From: a virus
DNA: 64,000 nucleotides
Strand: one strand, 5' to 3'
IMG/VR virus record: IMGVR_UViG_3300048672_000386
Location: 1-64,000 of that record
A program made the position numbers and the translations under genes. The notes under the pieces were generated by a model. It saw only the letters and a program-made list of their open reading frames with translations. It was not told the origin of the DNA and did not search any database. This document shows, piece after piece, positions 4,701 through 63,486 of the stretch; the stretch's first letter is position 1; every line of letters begins with the position of its first letter.

Positions 4701-7700
4701 TCCTTCCTAGTGCAGTTGTAATACTTTTATTCATTCCAGCCATAGTTTCATCAACTACTCCAGAAGTTCCAGCTAATAAGGCTTCTTTAACTCTTTCATT
4801 TAGAGCTTCTGTTTGACGGACGGCTTCTTCTTCTGCGGATTTAACAATTATTCTTCTAGCCTCTTCTTGTTTACTAGCATCGTATAAACCTTGAATATTT
4901 CTAGCTTGTGCTGGAAACAAGGCTTCAACTTGAGTAAGCATAGCATTTTCCCAAAAAGGTGTGTTACCTTCTTTTGGTTTGTTTCCTAAACCCGTTATAA
5001 AGTTCTTAGAAGATTCATCTGGTTTTAATTTCGGTATTAAGTCTTTAAGTTTTTCTAATTTAGCTATTAATAAATCCCAACCAGCTAGAACTGTACCACC
5101 AAGAGTAATACTTTTTTTAACATCTATTGCAGTTCCGTTTAATTGATTTAAGGAAGATTTAACTGTAACAGTACCGACTTCTAAGTCTTTCAGAACCATT
5201 ACAGCAGTTCCAAGTATAGCAACTAACTTAACCCAAGGGGGTAGCAAAGTTATTGTACTTGTAGCAAATATTTTCATATTAGACCAGATACTTAGTCCAG
5301 CTAGACTAGCACTAGCAGCTTCTAAAGTAACCATACCAGCAGAAGCCATCATAGCCGCATTTCTAGCCACTAATAAGGCTTTAGTTGCCACACTTAGTTG
5401 AGTTACTAAAGCTATGCCAAGTGCAGAACCTAGTATAGTAGTAGTATTAACTAATAGTGTCATGTTTTCTTTCAAGAATATTAAAGCATTGGTAGCTATA
5501 TCTAAACCACCTTTGATTCCACCTTTAGACTCCTCATATATTTTGTTTGCAAAGTTAGTCCAAGCAGTTGATAATCTTTGAATATGGGCATTAACACCTT
5601 GACTTGCATATTCCAAACTAGCAGGGTCAGCAAACATAGCAGCATAAGTTCTTGAGAAGTTAAGAAGAGTCTCCTTTGGAACTACTAAACCTTTCTTCAT
5701 ATCATCCATTAACTGTCTAGTAGTCTTACCCATACTAAGTGCAAAGATATTAACAGCAGCAGGTAACTGATTACCTAATTGACGTTTAAGTTCTTCCATC
5801 ATAACTTGATTCTTTGCATACATTTGGTTCAATGCAGTAAAGGCACTTTTCATCTTATCGGCTGGAAGATGCAATACCATACCAGCCTTTGAAATATTAG
5901 CAAAGATTTCTTGAATGTTCTCTACTTTCTCTCCTGAGAACTTAGCACTTGCGGCAAAGTCTACGAAACTTGAACGGAGTGTGTCGATACTTATACCAGC
6001 CGATTGGGCTAAGTCGTCTAGGAACTTTAATTCTTGATTAACCTTAGTAGTTACACTGAATACTGCTTTTAATGTTGCATAGGTAGTTTCAAATTGTAAA
6101 CCCGCCTCTGGAACACTACGCATTGCGTTTGTGAAAGTATTAACAGCGGCGTTGATAAGTTTATAACCAACAACTAGGTCAAAGATACGTTCTAGGAAAG
6201 GTTTGTGAACTTGGTCTAGTTGGTGAACTCCTTTAGTTAGCTTTTCTATCTCTCCTAGGGCTTTTTGTGCGGCATCACGTTGTTTAAGTAGTGCAGCCTC
6301 TCCTATTAAGAAACCAGCCCGCATCCTAGCTAAACCTGCTTGGTCTAGTTTAGGGTCAAGCAGTTTATTCTGAAACTTTTGAACTAACTTATCATAAGCC
6401 TTCCCAATATCCTCTAGTTGGAAACGAATCTTCTGTCCTTGCACGGCATCCGTAGAAGCTCCAGAAGCTTTCATTTGGTTAAGAGTTCCTGTGCGTTCAA
6501 AACCGACTTGTTTACCAACTACATAACTAGAACCTTTAGCTTGTAATCTTTCCAAAGCTTTAAGTTGTGCTTCGTAAGTTCTAACAGCCGCGTTACCTTG
6601 TGTAACTGCTGCTTGCATAGCCGCTTGTACTTGTGTTTGATAAGCTAACCAAGCAGAAGTAAGTCTTTGAACATAGTTAATGCCAGCTTGGGTTGTAGGA
6701 GCAGAATCTCTTTGAGCTACATACTTGGCATAACCTTCTGTAAGGAGTCTATTAAGGTTAAGTTCCTTCTGTCTTTCAGCCGCCGCTTGTTTAAGTGCAG
6801 GACTTAAATCATTATAAGCTTTTCGTAAACGGTTTCTTTCTTCAAGTTCTGCTTTAATAGCATTAACATTATTAAGAGTATCAAATTGTGCTTGCGTAAC
6901 ACCTCTTCTATAGTCTTGTATAGCTATAAGAAGGTTTTGATAACCTTGCCAAGCTAATGTTGTTGCTTGCTGTAATGTATTAAAGATATTAATAATACCA
7001 GCAATACCCATACTAGCAGTTTGTAACTGTCCAAGATTAACAGTTAAAGTATGTGTAGCATTATTCAATAAGTTAATAGCATTAGCAGAAGCAGCTAAGG
7101 CAGTTGGGGATAAGACACCAGCAGGTATCGCAACTAACTGGGTAATCAAACCATGTAAAGCATTTTGCATAGCTGTTAGTTGTGCAGTTGCATTAACTGT
7201 TTGTGTTCCTAAACTATTAATAAAGTTAGTTGGGTTAGCTACTACTTGGCTTATTGGTGTTGTTGCACCTACGTTCGGGGCTTGTATATTCTTTGGAACT
7301 GTAGCAAGAGCAGTCTTACTAGCTTGTGTAATTTGTTGGCTTGAAAGTTTAGCTTGGGCAACAGCTTGTTGCGTAGCTTGTCTAGCCGCCGCCGCAGCTT
7401 GTTGGTTTGCTAGTTTATTAGCAGCCGCTTGGGCATTTATGTTAGCTTGTAACTGCGCTAGGATAGCTTTACTATTAGCTTGTGCTTGTTTAATTTGATT
7501 AGCAGAAGCTTGTGCTTGTTGAGTAGCTTGTTGTTTATGAAAGTTAGCACTTTGGGTATTTATATTAGCTTGGAGTTTAGCAATAATACTTGCGCTAGTT
7601 TGAGAAGCTTTCATCTGGGCTTTAACTTGAGCAGCTTTATTAGCATCCCAAACTTTATTTAAGGCATTAGCTTGGATATGCAAAGCTTCTATATCCTTTT

Positions 7701-28897: not shown

Positions 28898-29683
28898 CTA
28901 ACTTTCTTTTATCTCCTTCAACCCCTTCTCAAACACCAAGCTAACTACTTTTCTACCACTTTTAACTTCCTTAACCTTCAAACTAATAACATTCTTGTCC
29001 TCAAGTTCCTTTAATACTGGTTTAAGTATCCTTTCATTGAATTTAAAGAACTCTCTCCTAGAATCTGGTACTTCCATCATTCTATATAACTCTTCAAGTG
29101 TAAACTCTACTACTATATAGGTATTCTCCCCTTGTCTCATCTTAAAAAGTTCATAAAATCTCCAACTGTAGACACTTTGGAGTTCAATTACCTTGCTTAA
29201 TCTAATCTTAGTAAAGTGTCTTTGCAAACTATGCAAATATGGCAATACCTCTTCTGTAAATCTAATACTAGCCGAACCAGTTTCTTTATCGAATACAGCG
29301 CAACTAACCCATTGAAAGAAGCCAAGTTTCTTACTTGTCTCAACTTTAATCTTTCTATCTAGTAATTTCATAACAGCAGACTGTAACTCAACCCTTGCAT
29401 TACTATTATTCAACTTGAATAGCTCCGCATAGTTGGCAACTGTTATGGTGAAAGTATCATCTCTAGTTACAACATCACCTGTCAACTTCTGCCAATACAT
29501 TTCCTTTAACTGTTCAACTGTGAACCTTTCCTGAATCTCCTTACTTGGATACTTATTATAACCTTGTTTAATACTGCTAAGTGCCATAGCTAGTAACCTT
29601 CTCTCTGCTAGACTAAAACTAACAGGTTGTCTTAATAACTCATTATCTATAGCTACGAAGTGGTTCGACTTTACTAAACTCAT
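28898..29683 (-). CDS. Plasmid replication initiator, Rep_3 family (copy 1)
   Basis: A 261-residue protein with the two winged-helix layout of Rep_3/RepB initiators. It contains 'ELLRQPVSFSLAERRLLAMALSSI' early, 'FFQWVSCAVFDKETGSASIRFTEEVLPYL' in the middle and 'LQSVYSWRFYELFKMR' then 'LEELYRMMEVPDSRREFFKFNERIL' at the end, typical of the family. It binds iterons and opens the origin; iterons lie at 29747-29808. Its ribosome site (AAGGGGA) falls in a partial inverted iteron copy, allowing self-repression. Only about 20% like the second Rep by eye, so not a recent duplicate. Confidence 0.92.
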   Translation of the reverse strand: MSLVKSNHFVAIDNELLRQPVSFSLAERRLLAMALSSIKQGYNKYPSKEIQERFTVEQLKEMYWQKLTGDVVTRDDTFTITVANYAELFKLNNSNARVELQSAVMKLLDRKIKVETSKKLGFFQWVSCAVFDKETGSASIRFTEEVLPYLHSLQRHFTKIRLSKVIELQSVYSWRFYELFKMRQGENTYIVVEFTLEELYRMMEVPDSRREFFKFNERILKPVLKELEDKNVISLKVKEVKSGRKVVSLVFEKGLKEIKES

Positions 29684-33871: not shown

Positions 33872-33898
33872 ATGCACTCATTAATAAAGGAGTTACCG

Positions 33899-34606
33899 AT
33901 GGAACAAAGAACGTTACAAAGTTTAATAGTTACTAAAGCTAATGAGTTAGCACAGGCTGGAAGTAATCTTACCTTAGTTGAAGCTAAAGTCCTAGAGTAT
34001 TGTATAAGTACAATCTTTAAGGGACAAGTAGTCACTGCTGAGGATATTTTTGAAGTAGATGTTAATCATCTTAGTAATCTATTTGACATGGATAAGAGTC
34101 AGGCAAAGAGAGAGTTAGCGCAGTTACTAAATAACTTATTAACCAAAGTAGTTAAGATTGACTTAGTTGGGCAAAAGATAGCATTTCAATGGCTTAGTGC
34201 TGTTAGGTCGAATGACTTAGGAAGTGGGCTGCATATACAGTTTAATCCTGTCATTTGTAACTATCTTAACCCAACTAGACTTAACCAAGGTAAGTTTACA
34301 GCTTATCCATTGGAGCATATTGCACATTTTAAATATAACTTTAGCTTATCTTTATATAATCTTATTAAAAGTAATAACTATAAAGGTGCGGGATTTAGTT
34401 CTAAACTTTCTTTAGAAGAATTAAGAGAGTTTCTTTTCTTAAAAGAAAATGAATATAAACTATGGGGAGATTTAAAGAGACAAATTACAAAGTGTTTGAA
34501 AGAAATTGAAACAAAAACAAGTTTGAAAGTAAAACTTGTTGAAAGAAAAAAGGGGAGACTTGTTAAGCAAGTTGTATTTGTTGTTGAACAAACTATTGGA
34601 GAATAA
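33899..34606 (+). CDS. Plasmid replication initiator, Rep_3 family (copy 2)
   Basis: A 235-residue Rep_3 protein on the opposite strand to copy 1. Features are 'SNLTLVEAKVLEYCISTIFKG', 'IAFQWLSAVRSNDLGSGLHIQFNP', and 'YNFSLSLYNLIKSNNYKG' followed by 'LSLEELREFLFLKENEYKLWGDL', a full two winged-helix layout. It should bind the 20-bp iterons at 33751-33810. The ATG at 33899 has an AAAGGAG site; an upstream ATG lacks one. A broken GIY-YIG gene follows directly. Confidence 0.9.
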   Translation: MEQRTLQSLIVTKANELAQAGSNLTLVEAKVLEYCISTIFKGQVVTAEDIFEVDVNHLSNLFDMDKSQAKRELAQLLNNLLTKVVKIDLVGQKIAFQWLSAVRSNDLGSGLHIQFNPVICNYLNPTRLNQGKFTAYPLEHIAHFKYNFSLSLYNLIKSNNYKGAGFSSKLSLEELREFLFLKENEYKLWGDLKRQITKCLKEIETKTSLKVKLVERKKGRLVKQVVFVVEQTIGE

Positions 34607-53759: not shown

Positions 53760-54170
53760 TTAATCTAGCAAGCTTTCTCTAACTTCCATAAGTAGCTTAC
53801 CAAGCATATTATCTCCGATACCATTACATCTACCCCAAAAAGTATCTCCCCAAGTATTGTCTTCAACAATCTCTTCCTGCAAAGCAAGAAGTCTTTTCGC
53901 AAGAGGACTTCCTTTAGCAAACTTAAGCTCAAGGAGTTCTTTCATGATAGGAACTTTAACTTGTTCCCAATCTTTTCTTATGTTAGTGAACTTTCTTCCT
54001 AACTTCTTAGCTTGAAAGCCGTTTAAAGCTGTAAAACTTTTATCAAAAGGTATTATTTTGTTAGCTTGATAAGCACTTTCAGTACAGCTAAAGATTGCAC
54101 CTTCCTTTGTAACAATAGTACAAGGGTACATATTGCTAAGAAACTCATAACCTTGTTCTTTGAAAAACAT
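53760..54170 (-). CDS. NADAR family protein (YbiA-like)
   Basis: A 136-residue NADAR-domain protein. It has 'YEFLSNMYPCTI' near the N-terminus, 'TESAYQANKI', and 'DNTWGDTFWGRCNGIGDNMLGKLLMEVR' spread over the C-terminal part, the family hallmark. NADAR proteins act on ADP-ribosyl or riboflavin-pathway N-glycosides; some reverse guanine ADP-ribosylation of DNA. In this phage it could counter a host DNA-ADP-ribosylation defence, or be part of NAD metabolism. Confidence 0.85.
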   Translation of the reverse strand: MFFKEQGYEFLSNMYPCTIVTKEGAIFSCTESAYQANKIIPFDKSFTALNGFQAKKLGRKFTNIRKDWEQVKVPIMKELLELKFAKGSPLAKRLLALQEEIVEDNTWGDTFWGRCNGIGDNMLGKLLMEVRESLLD

Positions 54171-54210: not shown

Positions 54211-54978
54211 CTAGTGTCTTGCAAATTCGCCGTGTAGTTCTTCTCTTAACCCTGCTAGAAAAGCTCTAGCTTCTTCAAGTGTCTTAAAAGTATCTTGATA
54301 AAGTACACCTTCTTTCATTATCTGTGCATGAAACTTTCCATGAGCATTTAAAGTAACTCCTTTAATACCAGCATTGTTTCTTTTGCTTATGATATTACAA
54401 CTGTTCTGACTTGCTGTAGCTTCTCGTAAATTACAAAATCTATTGTCTGATTTGTTATGATTAATATGGTCTATTTGATTAATTGGAAGTTCCCCAGTTT
54501 CATATAACCAAGCAAGCCTATGTGCATAATGTCTATTCTTTCCTACTGCTATAATAATATACCCTGCTTTAGTAACACCTCCCGCTATACTACCTCTTTT
54601 AGCTACTTTGGAAGTAGTCTTTAGTCTTGTAAATAATCCTGTTTCTTTATCATAAGAAAAGAACTCTTTTAGAAGTTCTTGAGTTGTCACTCCTTCTGGT
54701 ACTTCTCTTACTACATCTAAGTTAGTCCATCTATTATCTAGCTTGTTACCATTTATATGTTCTACCGAAGATGGATAATCTCCAGTCATATAAAGCCAAG
54801 CTAGTTTATGAGCTTGGTAGTGTGTATTGTTTAGTGTCATACTCCAAAAACCTGTAGAAGATACTCCACCAACTATGTCACCCACTATCACTCTTGCGTT
54901 TTTATGTGGTAAACGCCATAAAAATACCCCCGTTTCTGGATTGTAATCTAACATTTCTTTTAGGCTTTGTTGATTCAT
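54211..54978 (-). CDS. HNH homing endonuclease with duplicated HNH_3 unit
   Basis: A 255-residue free-standing HNH protein. It has two related halves: 'AHKLAWLYMTGDYP...VEHINGNKLDNRWTNL' (about 57-88) and 'AHRLAWLYETGELP...IDHINHNKSDNRFCNLR' (about 148-180), each HNH-like, followed by an AP2-like C-terminal DNA-binding part ('GIKGVTLNAHGKFHAQI'). Only the second half keeps the DHI form; the first has EHI. It is preceded by its own strong promoter. Confidence 0.85.
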   Translation of the reverse strand: MNQQSLKEMLDYNPETGVFLWRLPHKNARVIVGDIVGGVSSTGFWSMTLNNTHYQAHKLAWLYMTGDYPSSVEHINGNKLDNRWTNLDVVREVPEGVTTQELLKEFFSYDKETGLFTRLKTTSKVAKRGSIAGGVTKAGYIIIAVGKNRHYAHRLAWLYETGELPINQIDHINHNKSDNRFCNLREATASQNSCNIISKRNNAGIKGVTLNAHGKFHAQIMKEGVLYQDTFKTLEEARAFLAGLREELHGEFARH

Positions 54979-55006: not shown

Positions 55007-55036
55007 ATTATAACAAAAAGAATTTGCACTTGTCAA
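55007..55036 (-). promoter_or_regulatory. Near-consensus promoter before HNH gene
   Basis: Minus strand TTGACA (55031-55036), 18-nt spacer and TATAAT (55007-55012), both exact. It would drive the HNH gene and the leftward genes behind it. Confidence 0.75.
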
Positions 55037-55044
55037 TGCTACAT

Positions 55045-56442
55045 TTACACTAACCTAAATAACTGACTTGAAGCACGGGAAAATGCCGTGTATTGAATCT
55101 TTAGTCTAAGGTGTTTATTCTTTATACTGTTTATGTTAGCTTCATCGGTAAAGACATCCTTTATAGTTGAACCTTGTGCATTGTTGCAAGTGCAGCTATA
55201 CCCATGCTTTGTATCTCTTCTAGTATCTTCCTCTTTAAAAGGATTTATCCCAACATTAAAGATACTACAAAACAATCTACACTTTTCAAACATTTTCTTT
55301 CTTTCGGTATCTCCTTTAGTAAAGGTTGCTTGTTGCCTCATCTTGGTAAACTTCTCAATAGCTTCACTCCGTTCCAAAGGTATATAGATAAATCCATCTT
55401 GCAAACCTTTAACAAAGTGGTTACTGTGAACATTAAGTTCAACAACGGTAATACCTAATAAGGTTTTATAACATACTTTCTTAACAACTGCTTTTGTATT
55501 GGTTGTAAAGATAGTTCCTTTTTGTTTCATTAGCTCTTCAAAAGAATAGGTATCATCTTTAACAGGTTTATCAAAACACTTTGTTGGTTGTCGGAATATA
55601 AGTCTATCACTTACCAAAAAAGGGTCTTCACTTTCTTTACCAAAGAGTTCCTTTCTAACAAGTTGATTAAGCTCTGCAACTCTTGTATTTGTATATGCTA
55701 AAACTACTGCGTCACCATTAAGAAAAGCAGCTTGACCTTCAAGTGTTTGAAGATACTTTTTAAGTGTGCTGAAAGGTGTCATATACTTATCAGGAACAAA
55801 GCCAGTCTTACCTTCTTCTTGTAAACTTCCAACCTTTGTACAGAACTCGTAATGTTCGTTTGAACTTCTTTTGTTCTCTGTTAAACGAAACCAAACAGGC
55901 ACTTGGAAGCCATTGTTAATATACCATTGTTCTTGAAAGGCTACACTATCACAACGAGAGTTCCAACTTGTTTCATCTTCTGGACTTGGCAGTTGCTTTC
56001 TATCTCCGATAAGTAGAACATAGATACCATAGGACTTACAAAGTTCAAGTATCATCTTTAGTCTTGTACTTGAAAGCATAGAAGCTTCGTCAATTACTAA
56101 CAAGGTTATACCTTCAAACTCTGGTTCTCTATGCTGTAACAAACCTTCCACACCTTCTTCATTAACACTATGTACAAGGTTAAAAGCTGAACATACTGTC
56201 TTAATATGTTCATAACCTGTTCCTAGCTTTTCCATAAGTACAAAGACTGCTTCATTAGTCTCTGCTAAGATAAGTGCTTTACTTTTAAACTTGAAGTGTG
56301 GTTGTTTTTCTAAGGCGTGTTTAAGTACAAAAGTCTTTCCACTTCCACCGTCCGCTTCAAGTATTGCAATTGTATTACCTCCTGTAAACCATTGAGGGAA
56401 GGATAGTACGAAAAGGTTTTGACTAGGAGTTAGTTTTATCAA
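55045..56442 (-). CDS. SF1 DNA helicase (RecD/Dda-like)
   Basis: A 465-residue SF1B helicase. Motif I 'EADGGSGKTFVLKH' (about 29-42), motif II 'LLVIDEASML', motif III 'VLLIGDRKQLPSP', and motif VI 'QYTAFSRASSQLFRL' at the end. It translocates 5'-3' in family members, used in phage replication or recombination. It starts at a TTG codon preceded by AAAAGGAG, inside the end of the upstream gene; no ATG is as well placed. Confidence 0.88.
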   Translation of the reverse strand: MIKLTPSQNLFVLSFPQWFTGGNTIAILEADGGSGKTFVLKHALEKQPHFKFKSKALILAETNEAVFVLMEKLGTGYEHIKTVCSAFNLVHSVNEEGVEGLLQHREPEFEGITLLVIDEASMLSSTRLKMILELCKSYGIYVLLIGDRKQLPSPEDETSWNSRCDSVAFQEQWYINNGFQVPVWFRLTENKRSSNEHYEFCTKVGSLQEEGKTGFVPDKYMTPFSTLKKYLQTLEGQAAFLNGDAVVLAYTNTRVAELNQLVRKELFGKESEDPFLVSDRLIFRQPTKCFDKPVKDDTYSFEELMKQKGTIFTTNTKAVVKKVCYKTLLGITVVELNVHSNHFVKGLQDGFIYIPLERSEAIEKFTKMRQQATFTKGDTERKKMFEKCRLFCSIFNVGINPFKEEDTRRDTKHGYSCTCNNAQGSTIKDVFTDEANINSIKNKHLRLKIQYTAFSRASSQLFRLV

Positions 56443-56670: not shown

Positions 56671-56802
56671 TTAAGAACTTTGCTTAGCTTGCCCAGAAGG
56701 TTTCTTTCTTCTTGCAGCAAAGCTGTTACATTCTTCGCGTGGAACTAATACTCCGTATGTGTTCATCCAGAATTTCTTACCATGTAAAGGTGCTTGTTTC
56801 AT
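56671..56802 (-). CDS. Small basic protein of unknown function
   Basis: A 43-residue protein (starts MKQAPLHGKKFWMNTYG) with a GGAG ribosome site 9 nt upstream and a Lys/Arg-rich end. It borders the structured gene-free region. Function unknown. Confidence 0.5.
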   Translation of the reverse strand: MKQAPLHGKKFWMNTYGVLVPREECNSFAARRKKPSGQAKQSS

Positions 56803-56852
56803 GTTGTTACTCCAAAAAGTTATGTTAAAATTTACTATATTCTTTACAGCTT

Positions 56853-57445
56853 TAAAAGGTCTGTAACCTTAAAGGATTAACCTTTAAAGAACACTTAGCC
56901 AATAAATAGTAAGTTAGACTTACTTAGTACCTTTAAACTACGACATTGGTTGCTATCTAAGTGTTCTTTAAAAGTCTCTGTCTGTTCCAGAGCGTCAACA
57001 CCCGCCTACTACTTCATAAAGAAGTTAAGGTATGTATCGGAATGTAGCAAGGATTAGACTATGAAAAGATACTATCTTAGCCCCATGTCAGAACTTACGG
57101 TATCATAACTTATCGTAGTAGAACGTAAGTTTATCTGGCTCTTCCTTTCTAAGAAACTGCGATTACTAAATGTCCGCTATCATTAGAAAGTCAACACCAA
57201 CTATAAAAGTTGTGTAATCTATTAAACAATTCCCTGACTACCTAGGGACAAATAATTGTCTATTTGTGTATCTTGCATACCAGCAATTATACTTTGCCAA
57301 AGTCACACCAACCAGCGATGGTTGTTTAAAAGAAAGAAGTTTACTAGCATAGTATTTACTATTTTTTAGTGGCTTACGGTAACGCGCCCTTTCTAAGTAA
57401 CTTCTTTCTTTTAAACCCAACTTCTTTTGCATATAGGCAAGTTGG
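56853..57445. ncRNA. Candidate large structured non-coding RNA
   Basis: About 590 nt without a convincing gene, built of nested inverted repeats. Two long stems dominate: 16 bp at 56883-56898/56957-56972 and 18 bp at 57324-57341/57399-57416. Shorter perfect stems are at 56976-56992, 57011-57025, 57092-57131 (8 bp), 57145-57190 (8 bp), 57198-57212, 57231-57248, 57309-57324 (6 bp with GCGA loop on the plus strand) and 57417-57445 (7 bp). On the minus strand it ends in tandem hairpins with TTTT (56853-56887), arguing for leftward transcription; the GNRA loop favours rightward. Size and style recall phage ornate RNAs such as ROOL or GOLLD, but no homology is shown. Confidence 0.5.
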
Positions 57446-57465
57446 CAACCTACTTTCGTTCCTAC

Positions 57466-57684
57466 TTATATTGGAAACAAATCAATTTCAACTTTAAAAA
57501 GATTCTCTGAACCTTGTCCAGTTACTAAGTCTGTTACTACTGCTAGTAACTCAAAGTTTTCGCAAGATACTTTAAAAGTCTTTATGTTAAGAGCTTCTAT
57601 GCTTTTGATGGTATTTTCAGCCTTAGTTTTAGTGATAGCTTCTTTACGAGAAGAAGCTTTAATGAAGTAGGATGTTACGCTCAT
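57466..57684 (-). CDS. Small protein of unknown function
   Basis: A 72-residue protein (starts MSVTSYFIKASSRKEAITKTK) of mixed beta/helix. A weak AAGGGTAAACTT site precedes ATG. It sits upstream of the structured RNA region. No family recognised. Confidence 0.5.
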   Translation of the reverse strand: MSVTSYFIKASSRKEAITKTKAENTIKSIEALNIKTFKVSCENFELLAVVTDLVTGQGSENLFKVEIDLFPI

Positions 57685-60879: not shown

Positions 60880-63486
60880 ATGAAACCAACTAACGAACAA
60901 CAACAAATCTGTGAACTTACAGCTACAGGTAACAACCTTCTAGTAAATGCCTTAGCTGGCACGGGCAAAACACAGTCTGGTAAGTTTATTGCTAAGCATC
61001 TTCCTAATAAAACCTGCCTTAGCATCTTCTTTAACAAAAAGAACGCCGACGAAGGTATGGCACAAGCTGACCGTCCAGCTAATATGTTCTACTCAACTAT
61101 TCATAGCTTGTGTTATAAACAAGTTATGAACGCTGGGTTTAAAAGTAAGCTTAATAAGTTTCTGTTATTTGAGGATATTGATACAAGTTTGCTTGTTAAA
61201 CTGTTAGATAATGAAGAAGCGTATGCTAAAGGTGAGTACCAAAAGGAACTTAGTAAGTTACAAAGAATTGTCCTTGATTGTATGAAACTTTGGCAACAAA
61301 GTGATGAATTTGACTGTTATACTTTTGTTAGTACACTGTACCCTTCTGCACTAGGCTTTAAGACAGGTAACTTTAAAACTTCTAGTGTGGAAGATTTAGA
61401 CCTTGTACTTATAACAGATGAGCTGGAAGAAAGTAAGAGAAGAAACCTTATTGGAAAGACTTGTTCTGAACTTTGGCAAAGGATGACTAACCCTTCAGAT
61501 AAAGCAAAAATAACCCATGATACTTATGTTAAGTTGTTCCAACTACAAGGACTTACTTTCAGAGAAGTTTGGGATGTTAGTAACAAGATGTACTTGAGTA
61601 TTGACCTAGTAATACTTGATGAATGTCTCACTGCTACACAAGCTGTTAAAACAGAACAAGGTTTAATTAGAATAAAAAGGCTTTGTGATACTTTTAATAG
61701 AGGACTACCTGTTCCTAAGATACTTAGTTACAACATTGAACAAGGCATCTACGAATATAAGGAGATGTTATCTTGTTTAACTTCAAAAGATAGAGAAGTG
61801 TTGCTTATTAAAACAGAAGGCTTGAATAAAGTTGAATGTACTCCTAACCATAGATTACTAACACAACGTGGTTATATTAGAGCAGATGAACTTGTTATTG
61901 GGGAAGACTATCTCTTATTAGATACTCCAGATAATCAAAAATCAAAGTATGTATTAGGTGAAGAGCAGTTACAGATTATGCTTGGTTCTTTCTTGGGTGA
62001 CGGTTGTTTAGCTAAACAAAGTAAGTTTCCTACTTATAGACTACAGTTCACTCAGGGAGTTGCTCAAGAACGGTACTTAAGAAGTAAGGCTAAGGCTTTT
62101 AACTGCCCTGAACCTAGAAAGAACATAAGTGGTTATACTGGTAAAGAGTCTATTTTTCAAACATCTTCTAAAATTTTTGTATTGGATAAAGAGCCTTTTG
62201 AACTACTAGACTTGCTTGATGCTAGGGGTCTCGCTGTTTGGTATATGGATGATGGGTCATTAGGTAAGTGCAACAGTATCTGTATTAACTCTAATAACTT
62301 TAATTATGCAGAACACATTATATTACAACAGCTTCTTTTTAAGAACTTCGGACTTCAAGCTAGTATTAAGAACTACAATGGATTTTATGACTTAAGATTT
62401 AATGTTATTGAAAGTCAAAAACTACTCTTAATGGTAGCCCCTTTCATGCACGAAGACTTAAGATACAAGAACCCTTTTATGAAAGAGTCTTACGACTGGA
62501 AGTGTGACTTTAAACCTTATGGAGCTAACTTTGTCTCAACTATAGAAGACGCAGGTATTCAAGATGTGTATGATATTGAAGTAGCTGATAATCATAACTT
62601 TTGTACAAGTAGAAGCCTAAATAACACTAGAGCTGGTACAGGTGTAATAGTTCATAACTGCCAAGACAGCAACAGCGTAACACTTGCAATCTTCAATAAC
62701 CAAACACACTTACAACGTATAGCTTGTGGTGATAAGAATCAGAACTTGTACGCTTGGAGAGGTGCAAAGAATGACTTTAGTAGCTTTGCTAGTTGGAACA
62801 AAGCTACATTGACGGAAAGTTTCCGTTTTGGACAAGGCATTGCTGATATTGCTAACAAAGTCTTATCTTTACCAGCTATGGAAACAAGTCTTAGACTTAT
62901 TGGGCGTGGAACTGACAAAGGTACTGGACAAACAGCCATACTTTGTCGAACTAATGCGACTGTTTTACAAATAGTCTTTACCAAGTTACTACTTGGAGAG
63001 AAAGTAGCTTGCGTAAGCAAATTCAACGAGATGGAAAGTATGATGTATCATGTTTTTGCAGTTCTTAATGAACAAGAACCAAAGTTCCCAGTGGCAAGTT
63101 TAAAAAGTTTCGATACGAAAGAGAAAATGTGGCAAGCAATTGAAAGTAATCAGGAACTTGGGCAGATTTATAAACTTGCAAAGATGATAAGTGATGCAAA
63201 GGGTGGTTTATTTACTGGACTTAAGTATCTTGAAGAGAACTTGGTTAGTCAGGAAAAGGCTGACTTTATTGTGTCAACAATTCATGCGTCCAAAGGACTA
63301 GGTTTTACTAATGTAGTTATTGCTGATGACTTCCTTGTTCCAATAGTTATTGAAGGTATGCCTTATTACGAAGATGCAATAGAAGACTTGTTAGTTGATA
63401 GAGTTAAACTAGCAATGTGTTACGTTGCAATAACTAGAGCTGTGAAAACAGTTACACTTCCTTGGTATCTTGAGGGAGTTCTATAA
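60880..63486 (+). CDS. UvrD/Rep-type helicase interrupted by an intein
   Basis: An 868-residue precursor. Extein motifs: Q/I 'TNEQQQICEL' and 'NALAGTGKTQSGK' (about 23-35), Ia 'STIHSLCYK', II 'LVILDE|CQDSN' split by the intein, III 'RIACGDKNQNLYAWRGA', IV-VI 'LTESFRFG' and 'FIVSTIHASKGLGFTNVVIAD', 'LAMCYVAITRAVKTV'. After splicing the helicase has about 523 residues. The last residues follow motif VI at once. It likely helps replication restart or recombination. The intein is listed apart. Confidence 0.92.
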   Translation: MKPTNEQQQICELTATGNNLLVNALAGTGKTQSGKFIAKHLPNKTCLSIFFNKKNADEGMAQADRPANMFYSTIHSLCYKQVMNAGFKSKLNKFLLFEDIDTSLLVKLLDNEEAYAKGEYQKELSKLQRIVLDCMKLWQQSDEFDCYTFVSTLYPSALGFKTGNFKTSSVEDLDLVLITDELEESKRRNLIGKTCSELWQRMTNPSDKAKITHDTYVKLFQLQGLTFREVWDVSNKMYLSIDLVILDECLTATQAVKTEQGLIRIKRLCDTFNRGLPVPKILSYNIEQGIYEYKEMLSCLTSKDREVLLIKTEGLNKVECTPNHRLLTQRGYIRADELVIGEDYLLLDTPDNQKSKYVLGEEQLQIMLGSFLGDGCLAKQSKFPTYRLQFTQGVAQERYLRSKAKAFNCPEPRKNISGYTGKESIFQTSSKIFVLDKEPFELLDLLDARGLAVWYMDDGSLGKCNSICINSNNFNYAEHIILQQLLFKNFGLQASIKNYNGFYDLRFNVIESQKLLLMVAPFMHEDLRYKNPFMKESYDWKCDFKPYGANFVSTIEDAGIQDVYDIEVADNHNFCTSRSLNNTRAGTGVIVHNCQDSNSVTLAIFNNQTHLQRIACGDKNQNLYAWRGAKNDFSSFASWNKATLTESFRFGQGIADIANKVLSLPAMETSLRLIGRGTDKGTGQTAILCRTNATVLQIVFTKLLLGEKVACVSKFNEMESMMYHVFAVLNEQEPKFPVASLKSFDTKEKMWQAIESNQELGQIYKLAKMISDAKGGLFTGLKYLEENLVSQEKADFIVSTIHASKGLGFTNVVIADDFLVPIVIEGMPYYEDAIEDLLVDRVKLAMCYVAITRAVKTVTLPWYLEGVL
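61624..62658 (+). other. LAGLIDADG intein inserted in helicase motif II
   Basis: Residues 249-593 of the precursor (345 aa). It begins with Cys ('CLTATQAVKTEQG'), has block B 'VECTPNHRLLTQRGY', two LAGLIDADG motifs ('MLGSFLGDGCL' about 367 and 'LAVWYMDDGSL' about 450), block F 'DVYDIEVADNHNF' and ends with 'VIVHN' before Cys+1 of the extein. All splicing residues are present, so it should be active as protein intron and probably as homing nuclease. It lies exactly between the DE and QD positions of the Walker B motif; the extein Cys replaces the usual Ala. Confidence 0.93.

Follow-up and report, generated by a model that had tools for sequence, protein, structure and literature searches.

The window analysed here, a 64,000-nt stretch comprising most of a 66.3-kb IMG/VR virus record (IMGVR_UViG_3300048672_000386), carries recognizable phage genes for terminase, portal, major head protein, DNA polymerase and thymidylate synthase, together with those for a tape-measure-like tail protein and a J-like tail protein. 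Its nearest cultured relatives are remote, with the terminase being 31% identical to that of Marinobacter phage PS3. Gene strands diverge at approximately 58 kb (minus to the left, plus to the right), and the gap of interest is flanked by minus-strand genes at 57466-57684 and 56671-56802 and adjoined by a helicase gene (55045-56442). Two small genes, of 57 and 72 aa, separate it from the divergent promoter region. The window has neither tRNA nor tmRNA genes. The original prediction, made from the letters of the window, was that this gap holds a large structured RNA.

The two long stems with loops of about 57 nt that were noted there are real. The first pairs 57324-57341 with 57399-57416 over 18 bp at 100% complementarity around a 57-nt loop (93 nt overall), and the second has 19-nt arms at 56880-56898 and 56957-56975 that are 95% complementary with 58 nt between them; read as minus-strand RNA, all 19 of its positions are paired, one as U-G. 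The claim of about ten further perfect hairpins, more than expected of spacer DNA, also holds, as 56853-57445 contains 10 non-overlapping perfect hairpins (stem of at least 5, loop of 3-9) whereas 200 dinucleotide shuffles gave 4.7 on average (sd 1.8) and never more than 9. Perfect stems reach 18 in the gap and no more than 10 in 60 shuffles. When both strands of 56803-57465 are folded, as had been proposed as a check, the energies fall far below those of shuffled sequence (z = -5.1 for the minus strand and -4.5 for the plus strand), and a second run alongside control stretches gave a z of -5.6 for the element, compared to -2.6 to +3.1 for ten 650-nt stretches of the same operon. Terminator-like stems are also present inside the RNA.

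The sole homologue found lies in a 58.5-kb IMG/VR contig (IMGVR_UViG_3300020045_004302, hereafter L002), reached via the gap-adjacent helicase, which is 87-88% identical in the two phages. Positions 4935-5581 of L002 match 57456-56800 of the window in three conserved blocks of 91%, 84% and 74% identity, between which lie stretches of differing length whose letters are unrelated. Homology extends slightly beyond the predicted limits of 56853-57445, from 57456 to about 56800, at the start of the downstream gene. The RNA itself would begin near 57456 and end near 56840, with a conserved tail that continues as far as the ribosome site of the gene behind it. Unpaired core sequence hardly varies between the two genomes; a 39-nt block (AAACTTACGTTCTACTACGATAAGTTATGATACCGTAAG) is identical in both, and the stretch around GCTACATTCCGATACATACCTTAACTT ... 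GTAGGCGGGTGTTGAC is almost identical.

L002 has different letters in the peripheral arms and retains their helices. For the arm designated P2, GUUUAAAAGAAAGAAGUU/AACUUCUUUCUUUUAAAC in the window corresponds to GUUUAAAAUGUUAAAUCU/GGGUUUAACCUUUUAAAC in L002, where 17 of 18 positions pair in register vs. 3-11 when the arms are slid by up to 8 bases; for the arm designated P12, ACUUUUAAAGAACACUUAG/CUAAGUGUUCUUUAAAGGU corresponds to ACCUUUAUAAAGUAGUCUA/UAGACUGCUUUAUAAAGGU, with 19/19 paired in register vs. 2-10 when slid over the same range. Comparing 14 helices by hand, we find 27 pairs that differ between the genomes, 26 of which still pair, 23 of them by way of changes on both sides (with a random-pair chance of 0.39, a binomial p of approximately 5e-10, for hand-chosen helices). 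Since these helices were picked by eye, a structure-blind alignment test was added: RNAalifold applied to a plain MAFFT alignment gives -80.5 kcal/mol, compared to -47.6 +/- 6.0 for column shuffles (z = -5.5), and 14 double changes, compared to 6.6 +/- 2.6 (maximum 13) in 60 column shuffles. Covariation among homologues, which had been set beforehand as the test of the prediction, is seen in this one homologue, and as it rests on two sequences it is good evidence rather than a formal many-sequence covariation test.

Read in the minus-strand direction, the element opens with P1 (57417-57445), a conserved 5' hairpin of CCAACUU and AAGUUGG that is invariant in both genomes, so that covariation says nothing on it; alternatively, CUUGCCUA (57441-57434) could pair with UAGGCGGG (57008-57001). 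P2 (57324-57416) is the long peripheral arm formed by the 18-bp stem, in which six pairs are changed on both sides, one is changed on one side and one is broken. P3 (57309-57324) is an invariant CAACC/GGUUG hairpin, and the GCGA loop that had been pointed out in the gap is located here when read on the minus strand. P4 (GUGU/ACAC, 57266-57308) encloses P5 (57297-57294 / 57286-57283), where two double changes turn the GCAA/UUGC of the window into GUCA/UGAC. Directly after a first GUGUUGA motif (57197-57191) comes P6 (57145-57190), extended in the window and short in L002, with two double changes that convert CUUUC/GAAAG to GGUUC/GAACC. P7 (57094-57132), a CUUACG/CGUAAG hairpin whose loop is fully conserved, spans the 39-nt identical block, and an inverted-repeat scan shows its loop to be complementary to 56808-56827. 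P8 (AGUUC/GGGCU, 57079-57095) has three double changes relative to AGGAAAG/CUUUCCU in L002, and P9 (AAGAU/AUCUU, 57066-57078) is invariant.

A conserved block (57054-57026) precedes P10 (ACUUC/GAAGU, 57011-57025), which has one double change. The second GUGUUGA motif (57001-56995) and P11 (CUCUG/CAGAG, 56992-56976) together occupy 56976-57007, with two double changes giving CUAGG/CCUAG in L002. P12 (56880-56975) is the second long peripheral arm, with a 19-bp stem and a 58-nt loop; seven of its pairs are changed on both sides, two on one side, and none is broken. The conserved 3' hairpins P13 (AAAGG/CCUUU) and P14 (UUACAG/CUGUAA) form a nearly invariant block at 56844-56879, and a 43-aa ORF (56671-56802, minus strand) lies directly downstream. 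The C-terminal part of the product of this ORF is basic. In both genomes each copy of GUGUUGA stands immediately 5' of a covarying hairpin.

We favor reading the element from the minus strand, from 57456 to about 56800, because the two long stems contain four U-G pairs in the minus-strand sense, each of which would read A.C on the opposite strand, and no pair of the reverse kind, and because the alifold energy is lower for the minus strand than for the plus strand (-64.3 kcal/mol). The flanking genes also run on the minus strand. Transcription would be leftward, with the RNA heading the early operon. L002 has a 12/12 sigma-70 promoter (TTGACA-16-TATAAT, 4872-4899) approximately 35 nt upstream of the first conserved base at 4935; a scan of the window found weak promoter-like sites and no clear promoter directly before the RNA. 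The small upstream genes differ between the two phages, and the RNA is retained in place. The only ORF inside the element, of 64 aa (57238-57432, minus strand), which had been noted to lack a ribosome site, is not retained in L002, which has ATA for its ATG and then TAA. No other frame is conserved either: the two copies have no reading frame in common, and their longest open stretches do not correspond.

Searches for known families returned no Rfam family in the window at the gathering score, and permissive Rfam scans of both copies returned chance-level matches to unrelated families only. The gap had been suggested to hold either one of the large phage RNAs ROOL and GOLLD or a new class. A strongly diverged ROOL or GOLLD RNA would be in keeping with the similar length, the ornate layout of variable arms around a conserved core, and the phage location. 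However, the covariance models for ROOL (RF03087) and GOLLD (RF02032) give nothing at E <= 10 in either genome (the ROOL search being run without a positive control), the permissive scans likewise show neither, and the window lacks a tRNA gene, which makes this identity highly improbable. With both families unmatched, the new class is the branch that remains.

Further members were sought widely. BLAST against 50,697 phage records gave nothing meaningful, as did blastn against plasmids, and exact-pattern scans of 2.9 million IMG/VR viral contigs recovered, besides the L002 contig, isolated matches of 16-18 nt without the remaining RNA. In the two short-match contigs most closely inspected (L004 and L008), the matches fall within protein-coding genes or next to them. 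Scans with proteins led only to the same contig and to a single distant helicase, from a Chitinophaga MAG. The distant relative MW202489 has the same gene order (helicase - nuclease - AAA - polymerase), with no comparable gap before the helicase and two 400-nt gaps that fold unremarkably. The family may nonetheless exceed two members, as very near records can be missing from the searched collections.

It is also important to consider whether the inverted repeats act in the DNA, as a replication origin, a packaging site or what is left of a mobile element. Phage origins often carry long inverted repeats, and the cumulative GC-skew minimum of the window falls near 56-60 kb. The skew change, however, falls at the divergent gene switch near 58 kb, the element sits inside an operon, and its U-G pairs favor one strand. 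Besides its stems it also has hairpins specific to one strand and unpaired blocks that do not vary. No second copy was found in either phage, although one is expected of a repeated element, and a repeated or mobile element is rejected because the element is single-copy. Overall, a function in the DNA seems improbable.

A far stronger contender, if one to which we give somewhat less than even chances, is that the element forms the 5' leader of the early operon, a very large one that acts in cis. Such a leader would control translation of the 43-aa gene, for example through base pairing between the P7 loop (57101-57120) and its ribosome site (56808-56827), or alternatively read-through into the helicase operon. 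The RNA does precede the operon, and in both genomes a scan for terminators between it and the 43-aa gene comes up empty. An unbroken 8-bp core of complementarity links the P7 loop to the ribosome site in both genomes, with duplex energies of -13.7 and -10.8 kcal/mol that are equalled by 0.25% and 2% of shuffled loops. The 43-aa gene is also DNA-invariant at its ribosome site and over its first 12 codons, with 0 differences compared to 22 in the next 25 codons. However, because loop and ribosome site are both invariant, covariation cannot prove their pairing, and partners of equal quality for the loop occur elsewhere in the operon. Nested thermodynamic folds show no extra burial of the start region relative to shuffled upstream sequence (fractions of 0.33 and 0.93), and two variable arms and a size of 650 nt are unusual in a leader.

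Taken together, the comparison of the two genomes establishes a conserved minus-strand structure without conserved coding and without an Rfam match. The prediction of a large structured RNA is supported by the covariation and by the absence of conserved coding, with a single homologue behind it and the proviso that the RNA may be a cis-acting leader. On this basis, the element is very probably a genuine structured RNA that belongs to no Rfam family, and the two copies make up a candidate family, with two members, of phage RNAs as large as approximately 650 nt. We infer that it is transcribed, where it begins and ends, and that it functions independently; the last of these, as opposed to a role in cis, we consider about an even call, and we lean slightly toward this reading over that of a leader.

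If the RNA acts in its own right, a minus-strand transcript of approximately 650 nt would be made leftward at the head of the early operon and would fold into a conserved core with two long arms (P2 and P12) whose sequence is free to vary as long as they remain paired, and it would act as RNA and not as message. The invariant core, comprising the P7 loop, the AUUCCGAUACAUACC stretch and the two GUGUUGA-plus-hairpin motifs, would be the likely contact surface, with the arms serving to brace or space it. Such an RNA would most likely work early in infection, as is thought for ornate phage RNAs. More tentatively, it may represent a new class of large, free-standing phage RNA that has no sequence relationship to ROOL or GOLLD and is produced as soon as infection begins. 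Its invariant core would then touch some machine of the host or the phage, and its arms would form a particle of defined three-dimensional shape, possibly a multimeric one; we regard this fuller picture as possible, at rather less than even chances.

Among known systems, ROOL RNA assembles into an RNA-only nanocage. It is approximately 600 nt long, phage-borne and highly structured (PMC12286853), and the extensive covarying structure of about 600 nt seen here, in two sequences, resembles it in this respect. ROOL differs in that it is often near tRNA islands in phages, whereas the RNA here heads an early operon, has an ORF behind it with no intervening terminator, and does not match the ROOL covariance model. 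GOLLD, also a large phage RNA, has one conserved part and one variable part (PMC12286853), being conserved toward the 3' end and less so toward the 5' end, whereas conserved and variable blocks alternate here, with no tRNA nearby. Phage ICP1 makes an ORF-less noncoding transcript of approximately 800 nt that its authors likened to ROOL and GOLLD and that is not near tRNAs (PMC7567579). The ICP1 transcript lies beside the lysis cluster, unlike the RNA here at the head of early genes, and blastn of either copy against the phage records showed no ICP1-like similarity, the presence of ICP1 among those records being unconfirmed. The put RNA of phage HK022 is a structured RNA of approximately 70 nt near the start of the early transcript and is capable of acting in cis; the likeness lies in its position, and the difference in the size of approximately 650 nt here.

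The list of large structured RNAs from phages is short, comprising ROOL, GOLLD and some unclassified transcripts, none with an established function. The element described here, if borne out, would add a further unrelated family, at the head of an early operon and in a window without tRNA genes, and the phenomenon would be broader than this list suggests. Early timing and the neighboring small gene would then provide a testable handle on function.

Several other features of the region were observed. The 868-aa helicase (60880-63486) contains an apparent in-frame intein of approximately 345 aa (CLTATQ ... VIVHNC), absent from its 523-aa homologue in L002 (1712-3283). The NADAR-domain gene (53760-54170) and the HNH_3 endonuclease gene (54211-54978) are without counterparts at the corresponding place in L002, and a perfect 12/12 sigma-70 promoter (TTGACA-18-TATAAT with TG) lies directly behind the gap-adjacent helicase gene at 55007-55036 on the minus strand. 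Two related replication-initiation-like genes (phrog_4402 / phrog_2172) are found on opposite strands at 28898-29683 and 33872-34606.
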